From contig RCMX01000006.1 in assembly GCA_004348925.1 (NCBI GenBank), positions 260,363-315,482 on the forward strand: a stretch of DNA of 55,120 bases. The letters are read 5' to 3'. Below, in pieces: positions 2,067 through 35,648 of this stretch (position 1 is the stretch's first letter; each line of letters starts with the position of its first letter). Source of the DNA: Actinomycetota bacterium (lineage in GTDB: Bacteria; Actinomycetota; Coriobacteriia; Anaerosomatales; Anaerosomataceae). Under the pieces are notes generated by a model. That model searched no databases and was not told where the DNA came from. It worked only from the letters and a program-made list of their open reading frames with translations. The position numbers were made by a program, and so were the translations under genes.

Positions 2067-3359
2067 GTGCGGAGGCACACCCCTATCACCGCTGCGATGA
2101 TGGCCATGGCAGCGATGCTCATCTTCAGGGCAACCCCCGCGCTCGCCTACAACGAGAACTTCCACATCTCGGGCGGCGGCTGCGGTGGCGACTGCCACAC
2201 CACTGTCACCATCAACGAGGCGAATTGCGCCTCATGCCATACATTCGCTCCGGACAACACGAACTTCTCGGGCAGCGGCGGGGACGAAGACACGAACACC
2301 GACTTCCCCCTGCTGGGCGAGTTCTCACAGCGAGGACCGCACGGCGTCTACAAGACCACCACCAGCCGGTGCCCCATGTGCCACACCCTCCACGACGCAA
2401 CAGGCGCGAGCCTGCTTCCCGGCGCAACCATCATGGCCACCTGCTTCACCTGCCATGACGGCACGCAGGGCTACGGCGTGTACGGCGCGATCCGGGCACG
2501 CACCGGATCACCGGCGGCTGGCGGACACAGCGTCGACACTACGAGCGTTGTGCCGGGCGGCGACGCGGCGAGCGGCGGATCGGCGACCTCCACCGCCTTC
2601 CGGGGACCGAACGGCACGATGACCTGCTCGGACTGTCACAGCCCGCACGACTCGAAGACGGTCGCGGCCTTCACGGGCGAACGCGTCAGGATCCGCGCGC
2701 ACGAGGGCCCGGTGTACTCGAGCAAGCTGCTGAAGCAGCAGCCGAGCGGGGCCACCACGGCCACTGCGGTCTACGGCTCCGACTGGTGCCTCGGCTGCCA
2801 CGACGGACGCGGTACGGGCGGCACCGTGCACAACCATCCGGTGGATTCGAAAGCAAGCACCTCGACGCCCTACTACTACAACTACCTCGCGGTGTATCGG
2901 ACCGCGGGCTTCCCCACCGATGGGCAGTACGAGAGCGGCGCACCGGTGCCGTTGACCAACGCGTTCGTGCGGATCGGCGCCGTCGGCAACGTGCTCGTCA
3001 CCGGGAACGGTGGTCACCCCATCACGACCTCCCCGGACTGGAATGAAGCGGACTTCCACAGCTCACCCTGGCTGATGACGTACCCGCGAAGCCCGCTCCA
3101 TGCCGGGCACGCACCCATCTGCCAGCAGTGCCACGAGGACAAGCGCAACTGCGGGACGCTCTCAGCCGACGGAAAGACAGCGAACATCATCAGGGACGCT
3201 CTGTGGGGCACGGACGCCGACGGACAGCAGCTGCATCCGACGTATCTGCCGAATCCGCGCTTCCAGAACTTCCCGCACGAGACCGAGGATCCACAGCTGC
3301 TGGTCGAGTCCGGTGACGACCTGTGTCTCAACTGCCATCCGATGACGCAGCTGCCGTAG
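2067..3359 (+). CDS. secreted multiheme c-type cytochrome (doubled CXXCH type)
   Basis: 430 residues from a GTG preceded by AAAGGAAG. A signal peptide with an ALA-type cleavage site near residue 27 sends it outside the membrane. Seven canonical haem sites are visible (CASCH, CPMCH, CFTCH, CSDCH, CLGCH, CQQCH, CLNCH). A CGGDCH near residue 38 has three rather than two intervening residues and may bind an eighth haem. Spacing is irregular with long loops, like the doubled CXXCH family rather than a compact cytochrome c3. No quinol-binding partner is adjacent, so its redox partner is unknown. It could be a soluble or wall-associated electron carrier linked to the cytochrome operon near 26-32 kb; that link is inference. 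Confidence 0.88.
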   Translation: MRRHTPITAAMMAMAAMLIFRATPALAYNENFHISGGGCGGDCHTTVTINEANCASCHTFAPDNTNFSGSGGDEDTNTDFPLLGEFSQRGPHGVYKTTTSRCPMCHTLHDATGASLLPGATIMATCFTCHDGTQGYGVYGAIRARTGSPAAGGHSVDTTSVVPGGDAASGGSATSTAFRGPNGTMTCSDCHSPHDSKTVAAFTGERVRIRAHEGPVYSSKLLKQQPSGATTATAVYGSDWCLGCHDGRGTGGTVHNHPVDSKASTSTPYYYNYLAVYRTAGFPTDGQYESGAPVPLTNAFVRIGAVGNVLVTGNGGHPITTSPDWNEADFHSSPWLMTYPRSPLHAGHAPICQQCHEDKRNCGTLSADGKTANIIRDALWGTDADGQQLHPTYLPNPRFQNFPHETEDPQLLVESGDDLCLNCHPMTQLP

Positions 3360-25677: not shown

Positions 25678-25752
25678 TGGTGGGCGATGAGGGATTCGAA
25701 CCCCCGACTTCCTCCGTGTAAAGGAGGCACTCTCCCGCTGAGTTAATCGCCC
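25678..25752 (-). tRNA. tRNA-Val(TAC)
   Basis: 75 nt with encoded CCA: acceptor GGGCGAT/ATCGCCC, D arm ACTC...GAGT, anticodon stem CCTCC/GGAGG around TTTACAC (anticodon TAC), T arm GGGGG-TTCGAAT-CCCTC, discriminator A. Confidence 0.96.
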
Positions 25753-25820: not shown

Positions 25821-26786
25821 CTACCTGTCGGCGCGGACGTGGCACTGCACGCAAGAGAGCGGTCCGTGGCATTCGATGCAATGTGCAGCTCCGCCCTTGT
25901 CCACCTGTTGCCCGTGCTGATCCAGCCATGCCCCCTGCTTGGGGTCGTACTCGGCGTGGTGGCACATCGTGCACATATCCGGCTTGCCGCCATGGCAGCG
26001 AGAGCAGACCGTGGGGTCGGTCCTGGCGACCGCTGCATGCCCTGTCGTCTCTTTGGTCCAGCCAGCGGGATGCGGCATCTGAACGCCGTGGCAGTCATCA
26101 CACAGGCGCTGCTCGTGACACATGCCGCAGAGCTTCACATCCGCAAGCGCGATGTCCCCGTGACGCCCGTCCTTCCACTGAGCGCCCGAATGCGAAGCGG
26201 GCACCAGCTCGTACCCTGACGGATGGCACACAGCGCACGTTGCAGACGCATCAGGCTTCTCGGCAGTTCCATGGCAGGTGAAGCACTGCGCCATCAGCGT
26301 GAGTGCGTTCCCGCGTGTCTGTTCCGGGTGCGCGGTCCGTACGTGGCATGACACGCAGGAGCCGTTGCGCTTCGCGTGCTCCGCGTGATCGATGAGGATG
26401 CGGTAGCCCGATGTCGCGGTCCGATTCGGGCTGTGACACTGCAGGCACACCACGTCGGCCACCGGCGCCACATCTGCCGAGCGGGTCTCCACCTGAGTCG
26501 GATAGTCGCCCGAGATGTGCGCACCGATGTCGCGGGCGAAGAGCTTGCCCCTGTCGACCAGCCGTGCAGGCAGCGCATACCAGGCATGCGGCGCTTCGTG
26601 GCACTTCACGCACGCGACCGTCACATGAGCTGAACGCTCCCATGAGCCCGCGCGCGAGGTCATCTCGTGACATGAGGCGCATACGCGAGGTGACGCGGTG
26701 CTCAGATCCAGCACGACGGCAGCCAACACAACGCCGAGGATCACCGCGGCAAGGACAAGGGCGCGCTTGCGACCGAAGGCACCCAT
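25821..26786 (-). CDS. membrane-anchored dodecaheme cytochrome c (NapC/NrfH-like N-terminus)
   Basis: 321 residues. An N-terminal helix (LVLAAVILGVVLAAVVLDL) anchors it with the haem domain outside. Twelve CXXCH sites are visible, starting with CASCHEM near residue 36 and ending CVQCHVR at the C-terminus; the N-terminal CASCHEM...CVKCHEAPH arrangement resembles NapC/NrfH quinol-oxidising cytochromes. Last gene of the operon; its ATG follows the preceding TAG directly. It is the least similar to its three neighbours, so it may be the outward electron acceptor or a fused terminal module. Confidence 0.9.
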   Translation of the reverse strand: MGAFGRKRALVLAAVILGVVLAAVVLDLSTASPRVCASCHEMTSRAGSWERSAHVTVACVKCHEAPHAWYALPARLVDRGKLFARDIGAHISGDYPTQVETRSADVAPVADVVCLQCHSPNRTATSGYRILIDHAEHAKRNGSCVSCHVRTAHPEQTRGNALTLMAQCFTCHGTAEKPDASATCAVCHPSGYELVPASHSGAQWKDGRHGDIALADVKLCGMCHEQRLCDDCHGVQMPHPAGWTKETTGHAAVARTDPTVCSRCHGGKPDMCTMCHHAEYDPKQGAWLDQHGQQVDKGGAAHCIECHGPLSCVQCHVRADR

Positions 26787-27635
26787 CTACTTCACGACCT
26801 TGAGCGCCGGGTCGAAGTTGAGCGAGGGGACTTCACCGTGACAACGCACGCAGAAGGGCGCCTCGTGGCACGCCTCGCAGCTGCGGTGTTTCGCGACCGC
26901 CGCCCCGTGTCCGGCACGCCAATCCGAGACGTGCGACGGCGGGCGCTGCGCATGACAATCCGCGCACCAGTCGGCCTTCCACTTGTGGCACGTCGCACAT
27001 TCCGGGTCATCCCGGTGGTCGCCATGCAGGACGAGCCAATCGGCCTTGCTGTGCGTCTCGGGCGCCGCCTTCGCTGTGTGACATGCCGTGCACGCGTTCT
27101 TGGCCTTGTCGCCGTCATGGCATGTCAGGCAACCAACCATGGGAGGCGTGTGCTTCCCTTCGGGACTGAGCTCGTGCACCAGGAAGTCATGGCACTCGAT
27201 GCATTTCATCTTGAGCACCGTAACATGTGCACGGTGCGGGATCTGCAAGTCGCCCGCAGGCGAGACCGACCTCAGGTCGCTGTGGCAGACCAGGCACGAC
27301 TCGTTCGTGGGTGCCTTGAACACGTCGGGCGCCTTCGAGCGCGAAACCAGCGACACGTACGACGTCCCGATCATCCGCACGCGATATGCGGCTCGCGCCG
27401 CGAGGGTCGGCGGTACGTGGCACGTCTCGCATCCCGCCTCGGCGTGGGTGGACTTCGCCCAGGGACCGTACTTCTCGGCCAGCACCGGATACTTCGAGAA
27501 GAACCCGGGACGACTGGCAAGGTAGCCGGGAAGGACGAGCAGGATGAGGATCGCAAGCACGACCAGCCCCAGCCGCAGCAGTGCCTGTCGTCGGCGCGGA
27601 TGAAGAAACGGTCCCCTGTCAGCTCTTAGTGGCAT
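26787..27635 (-). CDS. membrane-anchored nonaheme cytochrome c
   Basis: 282 residues from ATG 27635, overlapping the end of the upstream cytochrome gene by 10 nt. N-terminal helix (LRLGLVVLAILILLVLPGYLA), then RPGFFSKYPVLAEKYGPW and nine CXXCH sites from CETCHVPP to CVRCHGE. His-rich inter-haem segments (IPHRAHV, HGDHRDD) could give distal ligands. It shares layout and linker motifs with the two preceding genes, suggesting tandem duplication. Confidence 0.9.
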   Translation of the reverse strand: MPLRADRGPFLHPRRRQALLRLGLVVLAILILLVLPGYLASRPGFFSKYPVLAEKYGPWAKSTHAEAGCETCHVPPTLAARAAYRVRMIGTSYVSLVSRSKAPDVFKAPTNESCLVCHSDLRSVSPAGDLQIPHRAHVTVLKMKCIECHDFLVHELSPEGKHTPPMVGCLTCHDGDKAKNACTACHTAKAAPETHSKADWLVLHGDHRDDPECATCHKWKADWCADCHAQRPPSHVSDWRAGHGAAVAKHRSCEACHEAPFCVRCHGEVPSLNFDPALKVVK

Positions 27636-28396
27636 GTCTTGCAGAACTCCTCGCCGCCATGGCACACCAGGCATCCGTCGCCGCGCTCTGTGGCAGGCAC
27701 CGCATGGCCCTTCTTCCAGTTGCCCACATGCGACGCCGGTCGCTTCTCGTGACACTCTGCGCAGTAGCCGGGCGTCCAATCATGGCATTGCGCGCAATCC
27801 TGTGATGCAGCCGCAACGCCGTGCACCCGCAGCCAGTCTGCTTTCTTGTGCGTTGCCGGAGTCTGCTTGCGCGTGTGGCACTTGATGCACTCGGCAGTCG
27901 CCTTGTCGCCATCGTGACACGTCAGGCAGGTCTGCATCATCGGTCGGTTGAAGCCGTCCTTATTGAGCGAATGGACAAGATCCTTGTGACACGCCGTGCA
28001 TTCCATCTTGAGGACTTCGACGTGTGCCTTATGCGGGATGAGCAGGTCACCGCTCGGGGCCACGGCGCGATACGTCGTGTGACACTTCTGGCAGGCAGCC
28101 CTGGACGGCGGCTGGAGCAGGTTTGTCGTATCCGGGCCGGAAGCCAGCTGCGAGTAGAACGCCGGGATCGCGCGCGCCGAGAACGACACGAAGCCCCCGA
28201 AGCCCGGCTCCACGTGGCATTCACCGCACGCTATGCGCGAATGCGTTGACGTCGTCCAGTGGTCCATCCTCGGCCCGAGTGACGGGTAGCGACGATAGTA
28301 GTCCGGCTGCAGCACGGAGAACACAGGCAGTCCGACCGCCACGATCGCCACGATCGCGAGGCCGAGAGCCGCCCACCTGAGCAGGCGATGACGCAC
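27626..28396 (-). CDS. membrane-anchored nonaheme cytochrome c
   Basis: 256 residues from GTG 28396, with AGGAG nine bases upstream. N-terminal helix (AALGLAIVAIVAVGLPVFSVL), then QPDYYRRYPSLGPRMDHW and nine CXXCH sites. The last, CKTCH, is the extreme C-terminus, so the protein ends on a haem site. It is paralogous to the genes on both sides (shared CTACHKD/CLTCHDGDKA-type blocks) and overlaps the next start. Confidence 0.9.
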   Translation of the reverse strand: MRHRLLRWAALGLAIVAIVAVGLPVFSVLQPDYYRRYPSLGPRMDHWTTSTHSRIACGECHVEPGFGGFVSFSARAIPAFYSQLASGPDTTNLLQPPSRAACQKCHTTYRAVAPSGDLLIPHKAHVEVLKMECTACHKDLVHSLNKDGFNRPMMQTCLTCHDGDKATAECIKCHTRKQTPATHKKADWLRVHGVAAASQDCAQCHDWTPGYCAECHEKRPASHVGNWKKGHAVPATERGDGCLVCHGGEEFCKTCH

Positions 28397-29407
28397 CTAC
28401 TTCATCTCCTTGAACTGGTCGTGACAGTCGGTGCAGGATGCCGCCTTGTGACACTCGAGGCACCGCGGATCATCCACGCGCTTCGTGAAGTTCTTGTGCC
28501 TGCCGATCCACGTGTCCGTCGAACCGTGGAACTCGGGACGCTCCCGATGGCACTCCTGGCACTCGCCCTCCGACTGGTGGCACAGCAGGCATCGCGCCCG
28601 CGACTTGAGTGCCTCGGCACCGTGATACGTCTTGGTCCAATCCGCCTTCACGTGCAGCGCTTCGATCGACTTCATGCCGATCTCGATGGTGAGTCCGGTG
28701 AACTTGGGCACGGTACCGGTCGTGTGGCACTGCTGGCACTGCGCGACGGTATGACACGACTCGAGACAGCCGTTCTGACCCACTCGCTGGACGACTGCCA
28801 CGTGCGCGGTCTTCCATTGATCGGCGCTCTCGTGCAACACGTGGTGACAATCGAAGCACTGCTCGGTCGCCTTGGTGCCAATATGACAGCCGTACGCCAC
28901 GCACACGCCGGAGAACGGCATCTCCTTGTGCTTGTCGAGGTACGTCTCGAAGTGCGCCGTCCACTTGTGGCAGCCAACACAGGAGCGCGTCTCGGTGGAT
29001 ACACGTTGGTGCGCGGGGTGCGGAATCCGCGCTGTCCGGGTCGCGTCCGAGCTCCAGTCGTCGCGATGACAGTTGAGGCACGCCTCGTTCCTCGGTGGTG
29101 AGAACGTGAAGTACTGCGGCGTGGAGCCGGTCTTCACGAAGCTCGTGTAGTAGTCGCCGATAAGCGCAACGCCGTTCTTGAGCGCATCGGTCTCATGGCA
29201 CGCGCGACAGCCGATGCCCTCATGCGCCGAGTTTCCCAGGTTCACGTAGCGGCGGTTGAGCAGGTGGTATCGCGAGAAGAACTCCGGCGTCGAGGTCTGC
29301 ACGAGCGGCACGATCACCGCAACGGCGCTCACGAGCACCACAAGGACGCCGGCGATCATGGCGATGCGCGATAGTCGCGACCGTGACCACGCCTCGCGTG
29401 CGCTCAC
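28397..29407 (-). CDS. membrane-anchored multiheme cytochrome c (11 haem sites, two non-canonical)
   Basis: 336 residues from GTG 29407, 8 nt after the NrfD stop. N-terminal helix (AMIAGVLVVLVSAVAVIVPLV), then STPEFFSRYHLLNRRYVNL. Nine CXXCH sites plus CVAYGCH (four intervening residues) and CLESCH (three) can be read, giving up to 11 haems. As the first cytochrome after NrfD it is a natural immediate electron partner, which is inference from order. Confidence 0.9.
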   Translation of the reverse strand: MSAREAWSRSRLSRIAMIAGVLVVLVSAVAVIVPLVQTSTPEFFSRYHLLNRRYVNLGNSAHEGIGCRACHETDALKNGVALIGDYYTSFVKTGSTPQYFTFSPPRNEACLNCHRDDWSSDATRTARIPHPAHQRVSTETRSCVGCHKWTAHFETYLDKHKEMPFSGVCVAYGCHIGTKATEQCFDCHHVLHESADQWKTAHVAVVQRVGQNGCLESCHTVAQCQQCHTTGTVPKFTGLTIEIGMKSIEALHVKADWTKTYHGAEALKSRARCLLCHQSEGECQECHRERPEFHGSTDTWIGRHKNFTKRVDDPRCLECHKAASCTDCHDQFKEMK

Positions 29408-29414
29408 CGAGGGC

Positions 29415-30668
29415 TCACCCTGCCTCGACGACGGGTTCCACGCCAGCGCCGAGCGCAGCGGGCTCCTCGTCGTGCTCGTCTTCGGGCACCTGCAGCGGGA
29501 GTACCTTGGCGCTGAGCGTCATGATCATGAGGCCGACTGCGAGCAGGCCGAGCGCGATGAGCACCTCGACGAGGCTTGGGAAGTAGGGTGACGAGTACTG
29601 CCCGAGCGTGTTGGTGGAGAAGCCCATCGCCATGAGCGAGTAGCGCTTGAAGAAGACCGCGACCACGTACATGATCGAGGCTGTGATCTGAACAGTCGGC
29701 AGATGCCGCGTCTTGCGGCCCGCAAGCAGCGCGAATGCACCGAAGCCCAACACCAGCACCGGGATGAACGCCCAGGCGTACTCGCCGGTGAAGAAATGTG
29801 AGAACCGGATAGCGTGCCCGGGCTTGGACGAAGTCGGCCAGAACACCGTGAGGATCTCCACCACCAGCAGGAAGAGGTCGATGATCATCACCGTCGCGAG
29901 CAACGTCGACAGACTGCGGAACATGCTCGAGGCGAACTTGAACACTCCGAGGCTCTGCATGATGTACGCGCATATCAGCAGGAGAGCGACACCGGAAGCG
30001 GTTGCCGAGGTGAGGAAGATAGGCACCATGACCGCCGAGTTCCACAGCTCACGCGACTTGTTGAGGGAGAGCACGAACGCCGTCGTCGTGTGCAGGTAGA
30101 TCGCGAACGGGAGCGCGATGAGCGTCATCCGATGCGCGAGCTTCTTGCCGCCGAATCCGGTGATGAGGACCCAGAGGTCAACGAAGCAGATGATCATGTA
30201 GATGTTCGCCGCGCTGCCGGTGTACACGAACGGCGAGGTGCCGTTGGGGGTGAGCAGCATGTACACCGCGCGCCACGGACGCTCCATGTCGGTGATGATG
30301 CCGAGAAGCGCAAGCATCACGAGCACCCCTGCCTGCAGCACCGCGAGGCGCGACAGCGGCTTGAACTGCTCGGCGCCGAAGAGGTGGACGCTCGCGTAGA
30401 CGATGAGGCCACCAGCCGAGAGGCCGACGTAGTACATGTAGTTGGTGAACCACAGGCCCCACGGATAGTTGTCGCGCATCGCCATCACAGAGCCGCCGTT
30501 GGCGAGCGCCGTGCCCCACGCGACGATGCCGAGGGTGATGATGATGCCGAGCAGCGCTACGAACAGCCAGTACCGTTTGCCGGCCGACTTGAGCGCGCCG
30601 ATATTGAAGTCGACGCCGATAATCCGATAAACGCCCGGTGCGGTGGTGGTGATCAGCTTCTTAGCCAT
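29415..30668 (-). CDS. NrfD/PsrC-family integral membrane quinol oxidoreductase subunit
   Basis: 417 residues with about nine to ten transmembrane helices, beginning RYWLFVALLGIIITLG. The PWGLWFTNYMYYVGLSAGG segment and ITDMERPWRAVYML are typical of NrfD-like proteins, which exchange electrons and sometimes protons with menaquinol and contain no haem of their own. It follows the ferredoxin subunit by 6 nt, the canonical NrfC-NrfD pairing, and connects it to the cytochromes. The acidic C-terminus (PEDEHDEEP) is unusual for the family. Confidence 0.93.
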   Translation of the reverse strand: MAKKLITTTAPGVYRIIGVDFNIGALKSAGKRYWLFVALLGIIITLGIVAWGTALANGGSVMAMRDNYPWGLWFTNYMYYVGLSAGGLIVYASVHLFGAEQFKPLSRLAVLQAGVLVMLALLGIITDMERPWRAVYMLLTPNGTSPFVYTGSAANIYMIICFVDLWVLITGFGGKKLAHRMTLIALPFAIYLHTTTAFVLSLNKSRELWNSAVMVPIFLTSATASGVALLLICAYIMQSLGVFKFASSMFRSLSTLLATVMIIDLFLLVVEILTVFWPTSSKPGHAIRFSHFFTGEYAWAFIPVLVLGFGAFALLAGRKTRHLPTVQITASIMYVVAVFFKRYSLMAMGFSTNTLGQYSSPYFPSLVEVLIALGLLAVGLMIMTLSAKVLPLQVPEDEHDEEPAALGAGVEPVVEAG

Positions 30669-30674
30669 GTCGCA

Positions 30675-31574
30675 TCACCCCACATACCAGATCATAGGTT
30701 CGTTCCCGGTCTCTTCTTTGAGGCGCCACACCCGGCGGGTCTTAAGCAGGATGGAGACTTCGCTCTCGGGATCGTTGAGATCGCCGAACTTGCGCGCTCC
30801 CACAGGACACGCCTCGACACACGCGGTGGTCTGACCGTTTCGTGTGCGCTGAATGCAGAAGGTGCACTTCTCGACGACGCCGGCCTTCTCCTCGACCGGC
30901 ACACGCGGGTTTCGCTCGGCGGCGGGTACTTCGGGCTCCACCCAGTTGAAGTGGCGTGCGTCGTAGGGGCAGGTGACCAGGCAGTTGCGGCACGCGATGC
31001 ACTTGTCGTAATCGATGACGACGATGCCGTCAGGCTCTTTCCAGGTCGCGATCACCGGACAGCCGTAGACGCATGTGGGCTTCGCGCACTGCATGCACTG
31101 CACCGGGAGGTACCACTTGTCCGGATCGCCTCCCTCGGCGTAGTCGAGCTTGGCGTGGTCGAGGTCGACCTTGCCGGGCTCCATCTCAAGCACCTGGATG
31201 TACGTGAAGCCGGCGTTGCGGCCGATGTTGTTCTCCTTCACGCACGCGTACACGCAGCGCCTGCAGCCGATGCAGGCCTTCACGTCGATGACCATCGCCC
31301 ACTTCTGGTCGCCCGCGGGATCGGCGTACTTCACGGGCTTGCCGGGGTAGTTGACGGCGTTGTCTTCCTCGATGATGGGCGCGAGCGGATCCCCCTCGGC
31401 AGTCGGCTCAGAGGCGGTCGCAGAACCCGCGGTAGCCGAGAGGAATGCGGGCACCGAACCCGCCGCAAGGATGCCTGCGGTAGCGCCAAGCCCCTCGATG
31501 AAGCTCCGGCGCGAGAGCGTAAGACCCTCGGGCGCTGTAGCGTCGGCGGGGATGGAATCGTTCTTCCTGGTCAT
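30675..31574 (-). CDS. Tat-exported ferredoxin subunit with four [4Fe-4S] clusters (NrfC/PsrB/DsrO type)
   Basis: 299 residues. Tat signal SRRSFIEGLGATAGIL (about residues 21-36) directs the folded protein across the membrane. Four cysteine sets follow: CIGCRRCVYAC, CMQCAKPTCVYGCP, CIACRNCLVTCP, and CTFCIQR with CVEACP, the HybA/NrfC arrangement. It passes electrons between the NrfD quinol subunit and the cytochromes on the outer face. Its ATG overlaps the stop of the upstream cytochrome (ATGA). Confidence 0.93.
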   Translation of the reverse strand: MTRKNDSIPADATAPEGLTLSRRSFIEGLGATAGILAAGSVPAFLSATAGSATASEPTAEGDPLAPIIEEDNAVNYPGKPVKYADPAGDQKWAMVIDVKACIGCRRCVYACVKENNIGRNAGFTYIQVLEMEPGKVDLDHAKLDYAEGGDPDKWYLPVQCMQCAKPTCVYGCPVIATWKEPDGIVVIDYDKCIACRNCLVTCPYDARHFNWVEPEVPAAERNPRVPVEEKAGVVEKCTFCIQRTRNGQTTACVEACPVGARKFGDLNDPESEVSILLKTRRVWRLKEETGNEPMIWYVG

Positions 31575-32272
31575 CGCTTGGACCTTCCCATGATCAGCAG
31601 GCCGAGGGTGCCTGCGCCAATGACAGCGCCGATCGAAGCCACGACGACAAGCGAAAGTGGCGTGTTCACGGGAGGATAGACCGGCGGACCTGCGAGCGGC
31701 TTGAACAGCTCGTGCTCGCCCACCGCCTGCACCTCAAACCCGCTGCCGAGGAACGGCGGTAGCGCCGCGACGTAGATCCACGATGGCGTGTGCGGGTCGT
31801 GACAACCGGCGGCAGTGCACTTCGGAAGGTTCTTGCCATGAACGCCCACCTGCCACTCGCGGTACTTCTCGAAGTGGCAGCGCTGGCAAACCCGGGAGAC
31901 GTCGCCGGTGATGTCGATGAGCGAGCCGTCGGGCGCGATGAGCATGCCGGGGTTGCGCGAGGGGTCGTCATGACACATGAGGCACGCCTTCTCGTCCTTG
32001 CCAAGCGTGTCGTGGACCTCAAGGGTGATCGTGTGCTTCTTGAAGCCGTTCGGGAGCGGCGGCACCGGATTGCCACCGGCGTCGACGGTCACCGGATGGC
32101 ACTTGGTGCAAGGATAGAACGCCAGCTCACCCGTGGATGACCGCCCCGCGAAAGCGCTCGGGGCGAAGAAGATGCCAGCGAGCATGAACACCGCCAGCGC
32201 TGCCAGGAAGATGGGACCCCCGGCGTACAACCGCATTCGTTTCCGGGAACCTGCCCTGCTGGATCCATGCAT
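31571..32272 (-). CDS. membrane-bound tetraheme cytochrome c, first gene of the operon
   Basis: About 233 residues from ATG 32272; starts at 32236 or 32341 are possible and none has a strong ribosome binding site. A signal helix (IFLAALAVFMLAGIFF) with cleavage near AFA is followed by three CXXCH sites (CTKCH, CLMCH, CQRCH) and a CTAAGCH with four intervening residues. A C-terminal transmembrane helix (LVVVASIGAVIGAGTLGLLIM) tethers it. It overlaps the ferredoxin gene and resembles the small cytochrome c7-like subunits that accompany NrfCD modules. Confidence 0.85.
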   Translation of the reverse strand: MHGSSRAGSRKRMRLYAGGPIFLAALAVFMLAGIFFAPSAFAGRSSTGELAFYPCTKCHPVTVDAGGNPVPPLPNGFKKHTITLEVHDTLGKDEKACLMCHDDPSRNPGMLIAPDGSLIDITGDVSRVCQRCHFEKYREWQVGVHGKNLPKCTAAGCHDPHTPSWIYVAALPPFLGSGFEVQAVGEHELFKPLAGPPVYPPVNTPLSLVVVASIGAVIGAGTLGLLIMGRSKR

Positions 32273-32386
32273 TGCGTCTATGGCTCTCACACCACCTTGT
32301 TCGCACCCCGTTGGCTGCACATCCTCCGAACGACCTGACACTAGCAGCGGCCCTGACCTCGACCATTCGCGAGGTATTCCCGTCTT

Positions 32387-32468: not shown

Positions 32469-33143
<675 letters not shown>

Positions 33144-33146
33144 GAG

Positions 33147-34910
33147 ATGCCGGCCCGCCGCCGGGGCTCGATCCGCCTCTGGCAGACCGAACTCTTCATC
33201 GCCGTCATCGTGGTGGCGATCCTCATCCTCTCGGGATCGCTCTCTGCGGGCGTAAAAGCCACACTCACGCAAACGACCGAGACGAGCGAGCTGCGCAACG
33301 CGTACGCGCTTGCCGAGCGGCTCAAGCCCGAGTTCCCGCTCGGCGTTGACGGCACGCGTGCGCTGCGCGACGTGGTGGCCGAGTACCGCACCATCTACGG
33401 CGGCGGCATCTGGGTGTACGACAAAGACGGCGGCCTCATGCAGTCGGCGCACGACGCAGCGCCGCTCGACGCGGTGCTGGAGTCGGCGCGACTCAAGGGC
33501 CTTGCCGAGGATGCCTCGTACGTGACGAGCGACCTGCGTCGCAATGGCTGGATCGTCGCGTCCCAGCCGCTCCACGGCCGGGACGGAAGCCTGCAGGGCG
33601 TCGTCATCACCGCCAGCTCGGCCGATCCGTCGGTGACGATCCTGCAGGGCGTCCGCGACCGGCTCTGGGTCACCTTCTGGATCTCGCTCGCGGTGGCAGG
33701 TCTGCTCGGCTTCGGCTTCTCGGAACTTATCGGTCGACGCATCCAGGCGATGTCGGACGCGGCAGCGGGCATCGCCGCCGGCGACTTCGAGCAGCGCCTC
33801 CCGACGAACCTCGTGCCCTCCGAGATCCAGGACCTGGCCGAGTCGTACAACTCCATGGCCGCCACGCTCGGCGAGGCGTTCTCGGCCATCGAGGAGAGCC
33901 GCCGCGAGATCGCCGCCGTCGTCGAGTCGATGGCGGAAGGTGTTGTGGCGATCGACTCGGCAGGGCTGCTGCGCGTCATCAACCCCGAAGCCGCCCGCCT
34001 GCTCTCGGTGGGGCCCGCCGAGGCGACAGGCACGCCGGTTGCCGACACGATCGCCGACGATGAGGTGCTGGGCGTCGTCCGGGAGGGTCTTGGCGGCGCC
34101 AGCGCGACCCGCACGGTGACGCTCGAGGGCCGAGCGGTCCGGCTGCACTGCACGCCGCTGCTCGACGCCGAAGGCGCGGTCGACGGCGCGGTGCTGCTGC
34201 TCGCGGACGTGACCGAGCGGCAGCGCCTCGAAGACGCGCAGCGCCGGTTCGTCGCCGACGCGAGCCACGAGATGCGCACGCCGATCGCCGCGCTCAAGGG
34301 CATGCTGGAGCTCCTGGTGGATGGCGCCAAAGACCGCCCGGAAGTCCGCGACGAGTTCCTGCAGACGATGCAGGGCGAGGTGGACCGGCTCGGCCGGCTT
34401 GTGGCCGATCTGCTCACGCTCGCGCGACTCGAGGCCGGCAGCCTGCAGCTCTCGCCCGCGCCCGAGTATGTGGAGGACCTGTTCGCCGACGTCACCGGCG
34501 TCATGCGAACTCTGGCCGAGCAGGCCGGAGTATCGCTCGATGTCGGGCTTCCCGACGGTGAACTCAAGGTGATGGCCGATCGTGACCGCGTCGTCCAGGT
34601 ACTCCTGAGCTTCACCGACAACGCGCTCAAGCACTCGCCGGAGGGGACGAGAATCCACCTTGACGCGCAGGTCGACGGCGAGCGAGTTCAACTCTCCGTC
34701 ACCGACGAAGGCCCCGGCATAGAACTCGACCAGATCGACCGCGTCTTCGAGCGCTTCTACCGCGCCGATACCTCGCGCGCGGGCGGCACGGGAACGGGAC
34801 TGGGCCTCGCGATCGCCAAGGAGATCGTCGAAGCGCACGGCGCGACGATCGATGTCCGCTCGGCAGTGGGGGGCGGGACCACGTTCTCGTTCACCCTCGA
34901 ACGCGCGTAG
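33147..34910 (+). CDS. membrane sensor histidine kinase with HAMP and PAS domains (PhoR-like)
   Basis: 587 residues. Two transmembrane helices (about 12-35 and 172-192) bracket an extracytoplasmic sensor domain of ~135 residues. HAMP (SDAAAGIAAGDFEQRL), PAS (about 250-360), HisKA with the phospho-accepting His in DASHEMRTPIAALKG (about 374) and HATPase with N, G1 and G2 boxes (FTDNALKHS, DEGPGIE, GTGLGLAIAKE) follow. The PAS plus HAMP layout is like PhoR/WalK. The ligand is unknown. Confidence 0.94.
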   Translation: MPARRRGSIRLWQTELFIAVIVVAILILSGSLSAGVKATLTQTTETSELRNAYALAERLKPEFPLGVDGTRALRDVVAEYRTIYGGGIWVYDKDGGLMQSAHDAAPLDAVLESARLKGLAEDASYVTSDLRRNGWIVASQPLHGRDGSLQGVVITASSADPSVTILQGVRDRLWVTFWISLAVAGLLGFGFSELIGRRIQAMSDAAAGIAAGDFEQRLPTNLVPSEIQDLAESYNSMAATLGEAFSAIEESRREIAAVVESMAEGVVAIDSAGLLRVINPEAARLLSVGPAEATGTPVADTIADDEVLGVVREGLGGASATRTVTLEGRAVRLHCTPLLDAEGAVDGAVLLLADVTERQRLEDAQRRFVADASHEMRTPIAALKGMLELLVDGAKDRPEVRDEFLQTMQGEVDRLGRLVADLLTLARLEAGSLQLSPAPEYVEDLFADVTGVMRTLAEQAGVSLDVGLPDGELKVMADRDRVVQVLLSFTDNALKHSPEGTRIHLDAQVDGERVQLSVTDEGPGIELDQIDRVFERFYRADTSRAGGTGTGLGLAIAKEIVEAHGATIDVRSAVGGGTTFSFTLERA

Positions 34911-35060: not shown

Positions 35061-35648
35061 ATGGGGCTCGCAGTAGCGACATTCATCATCGTCTTTGAGA
35101 TCGTTGCCGTAGTGGCGTTCCTTGTCGGCGTGCCGTTGGCCTTCGGGGTCATGGCGTACGACATCATGCAGTCACGCAAGAACGCGGTTCCGAAGGCGGC
35201 CGAGAGGGCCGTCGTCAAAGACAACATCATGCGGATCACGGTCGAGCGAGGCGTAGCCCGGGCGTTCGTGCTCCTCGGCGGCATCTTCTGGTCGATCGCG
35301 ACGTTCGCCGGCATGTACTCGTTCGGAACCTCCGGCACCGGCGAAGCCGTCATGGGCGCCGTCGTGCCGCTCGCAGCCGTCCTCGTGACGCTGGTGCTCG
35401 GCTGGTACTACGAGCGCTTCACGGCCGCGCTGCTGCTGCTGGCCTCGCTCGCGGTGGTCGCATGGGGCATCATCTATCAGTTCGAGGCCGGCGTCTGGGG
35501 CATCATGACCTTCGCGCTCATCGGCCCGATGCTCACCGCCTCGGCACTGTTCTGGCTGGCACGCCGCGAGCAGGAAGCGTACGAGCGTGCCTACTCGATC
35601 AAGCCGGAGCTGGCGTTCGCATTCGCCGCGCGGAGCTCGCTCGGGTAG
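35061..35648 (+). CDS. multi-pass membrane protein, unknown function
   Basis: 195 residues from ATG 35061 (AGGAGG upstream). Five to six hydrophobic helices, including FIIVFEIVAVVAFLVGVPLAF, VLLGGIFWSIATFAGMYSF, VVPLAAVLVTLVLGWYY and LASLAVVAWGIIYQF. No motif recognised. It sits alone behind the tandem 11-bp boxes and ends at a bidirectional terminator, so it may be a regulon member of the neighbouring two-component system. Confidence 0.78.
   Translation: MGLAVATFIIVFEIVAVVAFLVGVPLAFGVMAYDIMQSRKNAVPKAAERAVVKDNIMRITVERGVARAFVLLGGIFWSIATFAGMYSFGTSGTGEAVMGAVVPLAAVLVTLVLGWYYERFTAALLLLASLAVVAWGIIYQFEAGVWGIMTFALIGPMLTASALFWLARREQEAYERAYSIKPELAFAFAARSSLG

Follow-up and report, generated by a model that had tools for sequence, protein, structure and literature searches.

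Seven open reading frames, all on the minus strand in the ORF listing of the window (the whole 55,120-nucleotide stretch of DNA analysed here, 65% G+C), span positions 25821 to 32341 and encode a tetrahaem cytochrome, an iron-sulfur subunit, an NrfD-type membrane protein, and four large multihaem cytochromes (g1 to g7). Their packing, judged from the sequence, is operon-like (g1/g2 overlap, 4 nt; g2-g3 gap, 6 nt; g3-g4 gap, 7 nt; g4-g5 gap, 0 nt; g5/g6 overlap, 10 nt; g6-g7 gap, 0 nt). A promoter scan returned no site, and the number of terminator matches was near that of a shuffled control. The genes and their neighbours are as follows.

25678..25752, minus strand: tRNA-Val (TAC), 68 nt behind g7
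25821..26786, minus strand: g7, 12-haem cytochrome, membrane-anchored (321 aa; 12 CXXCH; CASCHEM and distal Asp present)
26787..27635, minus strand: g6, 9-haem cytochrome, membrane-anchored (282 aa; 9 CXXCH; without the NrfH haem-1 site)
27626..28396, minus strand: g5, 9-haem cytochrome, membrane-anchored (256 aa; 9 CXXCH; without the NrfH haem-1 site)
28397..29407, minus strand: g4, 11-haem cytochrome, membrane-anchored, NrfH/NapC-derived (336 aa; 9 CXXCH, CX3CH, and CX4CH; without the NrfH haem-1 site)
29415..30668, minus strand: g3, integral membrane quinone subunit of NrfD/PsrC type (417 aa; nearest curated model, DsrP)
30675..31574, minus strand: g2, Tat-exported 4x[4Fe-4S] subunit, DsrO/NrfC/PsrB-like (299 aa; DsrO, 181 bits)
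31571..32341, minus strand: g1, tetrahaem cytochrome, Sec-exported, with a C-terminal membrane anchor (256 aa; 3 CXXCH and CX4CH; start codon uncertain)
32469..33143, plus strand: response regulator, divergent from the operon (neighbour conserved across loci)
33147..34910, plus strand: HAMP-PAS histidine kinase (neighbour conserved across loci)
35061..35648, plus strand: DUF7670-like small membrane protein (neighbour conserved on the kinase side of the cluster)

From g1 to g7 the proteins carry 4, 0, 0, 11, 9, 9, and 12 haem sites, a total of 45 (42 CXXCH, one CX3CH, and two CX4CH). This motif count agrees with a preliminary description of this DNA, which gave about 45 sites (4, 11, 9, 9, and 12) in seven minus-strand genes that mostly overlap or abut; the latter also held, with overlaps or gaps of 0 to 7 nt, or 10 nt for g5/g6. 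The listed start for g6 (27779) did not, as it gives an over-extended ORF that would bring a spurious tenth haem site; we replaced it with the ATG at 27635, which overlaps the g5 stop and is shared with close orthologs. The large cytochromes behind NrfD are anchored, as had been claimed, with one N-terminal hydrophobic segment each in g4 to g7; that description had not noticed that they are NrfH/NapC paralogues and that three of them lack the menaquinol haem (see below); g1 has two such segments, N- and C-terminal.

The haem sites are not chance occurrences, because all those of g1, g4, and g7 are kept in 15 to 18 orthologs (43 to 95% identity) and because gene order and haem counts are repeated in other genomes. 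Of 18 aligned g4 rows, 17 retain the CX3CH and one (L060) has CXXCH in its place; the penultimate site is CX3CH in g4 of L055 and in g7 of L006 and L055. That orthologs exchange CX3CH and CXXCH in this way favours true haem attachment at these positions. Among orthologs, neither the CX4CH of g1 nor that of g4 varies. A scan of the seven proteins for longer CXnCH motifs (n up to 6) returned only the one CX3CH and two CX4CH, and none of the seven has CXXCK.

The host (genome, 2.25 Mb; window at 260363 to 315482 of contig C1) is probably, by kinship and literature, a deep-branching Gram-positive actinobacterium of the OPB41/Anaerosomatales-type Coriobacteriia, in keeping with the Gram-positive cell first supposed. 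Its nearest named relatives are uncultured Coriobacteriia/Actinobacteria, such as HGW-Actinobacteria-1 (g4, 95% identical). Beyond the window, a family search whose count is a lower bound turned up at least 16 further ORFs for multihaem cytochromes, which reach 2308 aa or 24 sites; an LPXTG motif was seen in none of them. The genome also has a ResB gene, for haem attachment, and one gene of the MqnA/D family (the sole menaquinone-pathway family checked), and g3 is its single NrfD. Two cultured Anaerosomatales are Gram-positive and have 17 to 18 multihaem cytochromes; in the accessible part of their description, an NrfD cluster is not described, and the word NrfD does not appear anywhere in the paper (PMC9686372).

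A search for this gene order, proposed in the preliminary description as a check, found the full set in ten colinear relatives of its order, in four loci with g7 inverted, and in G577. The ten colinear loci (L001, L003, L004, L005, L006, L007, L009, L010, L054, and L055) are complete, with haem counts of 4-0-0-11-9-9-12 and the divergent response regulator and kinase. L057, L058, L059, and L060 also have all seven genes, with unchanged haem counts, and their g7 homologue points away from the other six (architecture B); incomplete sets (L002, L008, L056, L062, and L063) were left outside the full-copy count. With a g4 profile, 30 of the 298 class genomes gave strong orthologs (E below 1e-80), and these 30 belong to one order, that of the host; among 396 genomes of the phylum there was one more, G577 of another class, where the whole set has identical order and haem counts. 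One genome (G029) has two g4 copies, and the operon is missing from many members of the Anaerosomatales order.

A tRNA gene lies 65 to 84 nt behind g7 in the window and six related loci (Val-TAC in one genus; Leu-TAG in L003, L004, and L007), and tRNA-Ser genes flank the cluster in L056 and L060. Relatives that lack the module keep the left flank and the tRNA-Val, with a different 12-haem cytochrome in place. Together, the tRNAs behind g7 and these module-less relatives with the same flank suggest a tRNA-associated insertion of the module. Exact tRNA-end copies, as at attachment sites, were not found elsewhere in the window.

The first three genes encode the core. The preliminary description of g2 as a Tat-exported 4x[4Fe-4S] subunit beside an NrfD is borne out by 16 Cys in four ferredoxin-type motifs, a twin-arginine motif (SRRSF), and a Pfam NrfD score for g3 of 114.3 bits (cut-off, 25.8) over about ten hydrophobic segments. 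Among curated models, g2 was best matched by DsrO (181 bits; cut-off, 200) and g3 by DsrP (143 bits; cut-off, 350), followed by QrcC, ArrB, HmcC, and QrcD, and NrfC also matched; among PDB entries, g2 matched alternative complex III (ACIII) and PsrB, and g3 the NrfD-type subunits of ACIII. On the ACIII alignment, the g3 residue opposite ActC His139, which belongs to the quinone site, is Asp127, and ActC Arg395 has Arg342 as its counterpart (for these roles, see PMC8076601 and PMC13059093). Neither g3 residue varies among 17 orthologs. The protein has the acid or His at the quinone site and the TMH8 Arg of NrfD/PsrC proteins, and the quinone link first proposed for this core stands. For g1 no informative relatives were found, and its assignment as DsrJ or as a catalytic reductase was rejected, with no useful match in curated models or homologue search.

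The four large cytochromes are, by sequence comparison, paralogues built on the NrfH/NapC family. Identity is 43% over their length for g5 and g6 and 25 to 28% for the remaining pairs, and in a tree g4, g5, g6, and g7 each form one group, G577 included (SH-aLRT, 99 to 100). The N-terminal parts of g7 (E, 3e-8) and g4 match NrfH of structure 2J7A, and all four share with NrfH the N-terminal anchor and the haem-2 region. AlphaFold models were of low confidence (mean pLDDT, 51 for g4 and 47 for g7) and Foldseek gave no useful match; we therefore limit claims about fold to the sequence.

The paralogues differ at haem 1. In NrfH the menaquinol-interacting haem is bound via CXXCHXM, with an Asp in the distal position (PMC8840924). 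This signature is retained in g7 (CASCHEM, with Met49 and Asp89), where the Cys-Cys-His and the Asp occur in 14 of 14 correctly framed rows and the Met in 13 of 14; the fifteenth row, G577, is mis-framed there and reads CGLCHEM in the right frame. With its N-terminal anchor, g7 thus has the features of NrfH/NapC proteins, while scoring 53 of the 134 bits set for the NrfH equivalog (TIGR03153). Both haem-1 Cys are absent from g4 (17 rows), g5 (13 rows), and g6 (17 rows), mostly with F/Y-x-x-Y instead, although haem 2 and its flanking residues still align. Haem 1 is kept in homologues from other classes that do not adjoin NrfCD, and the tree requires at least two changes for the haem-1 pattern (deep branches weak).

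Pairs of g5/g6 homologues with 10 haems occur in other classes of the phylum, next to a 7-haem cytochrome and a small membrane protein; the latter is similar to cytochrome b561 in L085 and, with a score under the Pfam cut-off, in L087. From these pairs beside another membrane protein, relay cytochromes seem to be joined to varying membrane modules.

Several known systems resemble parts of this set. The Geobacter inner-membrane complex Cbc4 (CbcSTU) joins a 4Fe-4S protein and a 4-haem cytochrome to a membrane subunit (PMC10989804), the three subunit types that g1, g2, and g3 encode together, a likeness of composition alone; Cbc6 (CbcMNOPQR), likewise of the inner membrane, adds 10- and 5-haem cytochromes (PMC10989804, PMC11434368). 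Unlike Geobacter Cbc, the set described here has four further paralogous, anchored cytochromes of 9 to 12 haems and a Gram-positive actinobacterial host. Methanoperedenaceae menaquinone:cytochrome c oxidoreductases (groups 4 and 5) likewise combine NrfD-like, 4Fe-4S, and multihaem subunits but are archaeal, and a four-paralogue, NrfH-derived array without haem 1 is not reported in the accessible part of that paper (PMC7327174). The order cytochrome, DsrO-like, DsrP-like is that of DsrJOP in DsrMKJOP, with three haem sites in DsrJ against four in g1; membership in DsrMKJOP was rejected on the DsrO (181/200 bits) and DsrP (143/350) scores and because DsrM and DsrK are not among the seven genes. 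QrcABCD and alternative complex III also have an outward-facing iron-sulfur subunit, an NrfD-type subunit, and a multihaem cytochrome; membership was rejected because the molybdopterin-like QrcB/ActB subunit is absent from the seven genes, and in this comparison the cluster lacks a second NrfD. NrfABCD nitrite reductase was likewise rejected, as the NrfA-type CXXCK catalytic haem is missing, and NrfH, NapC, and CymA have 4 haems against 9 to 12 in g4 to g7. The preliminary description had not recognised this arrangement: no description of it was found in open-access papers, so that part stands, but its kind is known from CbcSTU, DsrJOP, and the Methanoperedenaceae NrfD systems (PMC7327174). 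As far as the open-access literature searched shows, the set is known in kind and new in composition.

We propose that the operon probably encodes an NrfCD-type menaquinol:cytochrome c oxidoreductase together with an unvarying array of anchored relay cytochromes, which would pass electrons to outside acceptors. The established scheme for NrfCD modules has NrfD oxidise menaquinol and the iron-sulfur subunit conduct the electrons to a cytochrome. Here, menaquinol would be bound by g3 near the outer membrane face, and g2 would receive electrons from it and pass them to the anchored tetrahaem g1, the likely first cytochrome acceptor. Electrons would then enter g4 to g7 (41 haems), which would relay and store them at the outer side of the single membrane. 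From there, further cytochromes of the surface may take them over and reduce extracellular acceptors, for instance Fe(III). Since g4, g5, and g6 lack the NrfH-type menaquinol haem, they would be relays fed by other subunits; g7 would be a relay and may be a second quinol entry. We infer a single complex, this order of transfer, its direction (from quinol to the outside), and this final acceptor. The single NrfD, the MqnA/D-family gene, and the at least 16 other multihaem ORFs fit an outward respiratory chain, and a system of the same type, Shewanella SirCD, can take the place of CymA for ferric citrate, DMSO, or fumarate (PMC11434368). Against a menaquinol reading, respiratory quinones were not detected in the cultured Anaerosomatales, which are not necessarily operon carriers (PMC9686372). 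Also against the proposal, the conserved cluster lacks a gene for a terminal reductase, and many members of the order do without the operon. The extracellular or wall-located partner first suggested is putative; none of the at least 16 other cytochromes is linked to the operon.

The same genes could be read otherwise. The reverse direction, a Qrc-like cytochrome c:menaquinone reductase that feeds the quinone pool with electrons from minerals, partner cells, cathodes, or an exported hydrogenase or formate dehydrogenase, appears unlikely. QrcABCD, with related C and D subunits, does run that way (PMC13059093), and a biocathode Coriobacteriaceae strain, not necessarily a carrier of the operon, has been proposed to take up electrons via multihaem cytochromes (PMC7943316); the cultured Anaerosomatales, however, use H2 or formate as electron donors and sulfur compounds or Fe(III) as acceptors (PMC9686372), and direction is not set by sequence alone. 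That one multihaem cytochrome is a terminal reductase for nitrite, sulfite, or tetrathionate, fed by the others, is very improbable: NrfCD-type modules do serve NrfA and MccA (PMC8076601), but all reductase models scored below cut-off, and the motif scans described above gave no CXXCK and only the CX3CH and CX4CH exceptions.

How far the seven products act together is a separate matter. They may instead be several co-regulated systems, with NrfCD and g1 as one quinol dehydrogenase, g7 as an independent NrfH/CymA-like one, and g4 to g6 as separate carriers, an arrangement that we regard as possible but somewhat unlikely. The NrfH quinol-haem features retained in g7 favour it, as does architecture B, where g7 is alone and divergent, but wherever a locus extends far enough, g4 to g6 come directly after NrfD, and g7 adjoins the set even where inverted. 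At the other extreme, one 45-haem complex in which NrfD and the NrfH-type haem of g7 are two separate quinol entries, linked into one outward conduit by three relays that have each lost their own quinol haem, is conceivable and rather improbable.

In few organisms is it understood how Gram-positive cells carry electrons from the quinone pool across the wall. With its 45 haem sites unchanged from family to family, the fixed seven-gene set is a defined target for purification, for tests of menaquinol oxidation, and for genome scoring, and loss of the menaquinol haem in three of the four paralogues may serve as a rule, readable from sequence, for telling relay cytochromes and quinol dehydrogenases apart. 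If the two-entry complex were true, quinol oxidation at two sites could feed one outward conduit in a single-membrane cell.

The operon ends with g7, the 12-haem cytochrome gene, and 65-84 nt beyond it stands a tRNA gene, either Val-TAC or Leu-TAG, both in the window (25678-25752) and at L001, L002, L003, L004, L007, and L009 (L numbers denote loci from other genomes or elsewhere in the source genome). At L007, a second tRNA gene, tRNA-Lys, stands ~75 nt off the opposite end of the cluster, and two tRNA-Ser genes border the L060 cluster, one on each side. A short, g7-like open frame with four haem sites, possibly a g7 remnant, adjoins tRNA-Ser in the incomplete set of L056 (7605-7877). In relatives that lack the operon, the corresponding tRNA-Val locus encodes a 12-haem cytochrome distinct from g7 (L102, 4298-5461; L104, 11326-12510), which ends ~12 nt ahead of the tRNA in L104.

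Some operon copies include an additional 6-haem NrfH-like cytochrome, in which haem 1, the menaquinol-haem site, is retained, located after g6 and before the next gene (L062, 3146-3757; L084, 6875-7522). Another multihaem cytochrome, of the paired CXXCH type, was found ~22 kb away from the operon (window 2067-3359); a protein 36% identical to it is encoded immediately behind the operon at L006. The source genome also encodes two very large multihaem proteins, of 1,420 amino acids with 15 CXXCH motifs (L066, 6114-10373) and 2,308 amino acids with 14 (L070, 6558-13481), which are candidate surface partners.

In other classes, pairs of cytochromes like the membrane-anchored g5 and g6, either two of 10 haems each or one of 8 with one of 12, adjoin a 7-haem cytochrome and a membrane protein of the b561 type (L087, 6788-10281; L085, 8572-12174); in these arrays the g5/g6 relay family seems to be joined to a different membrane module.
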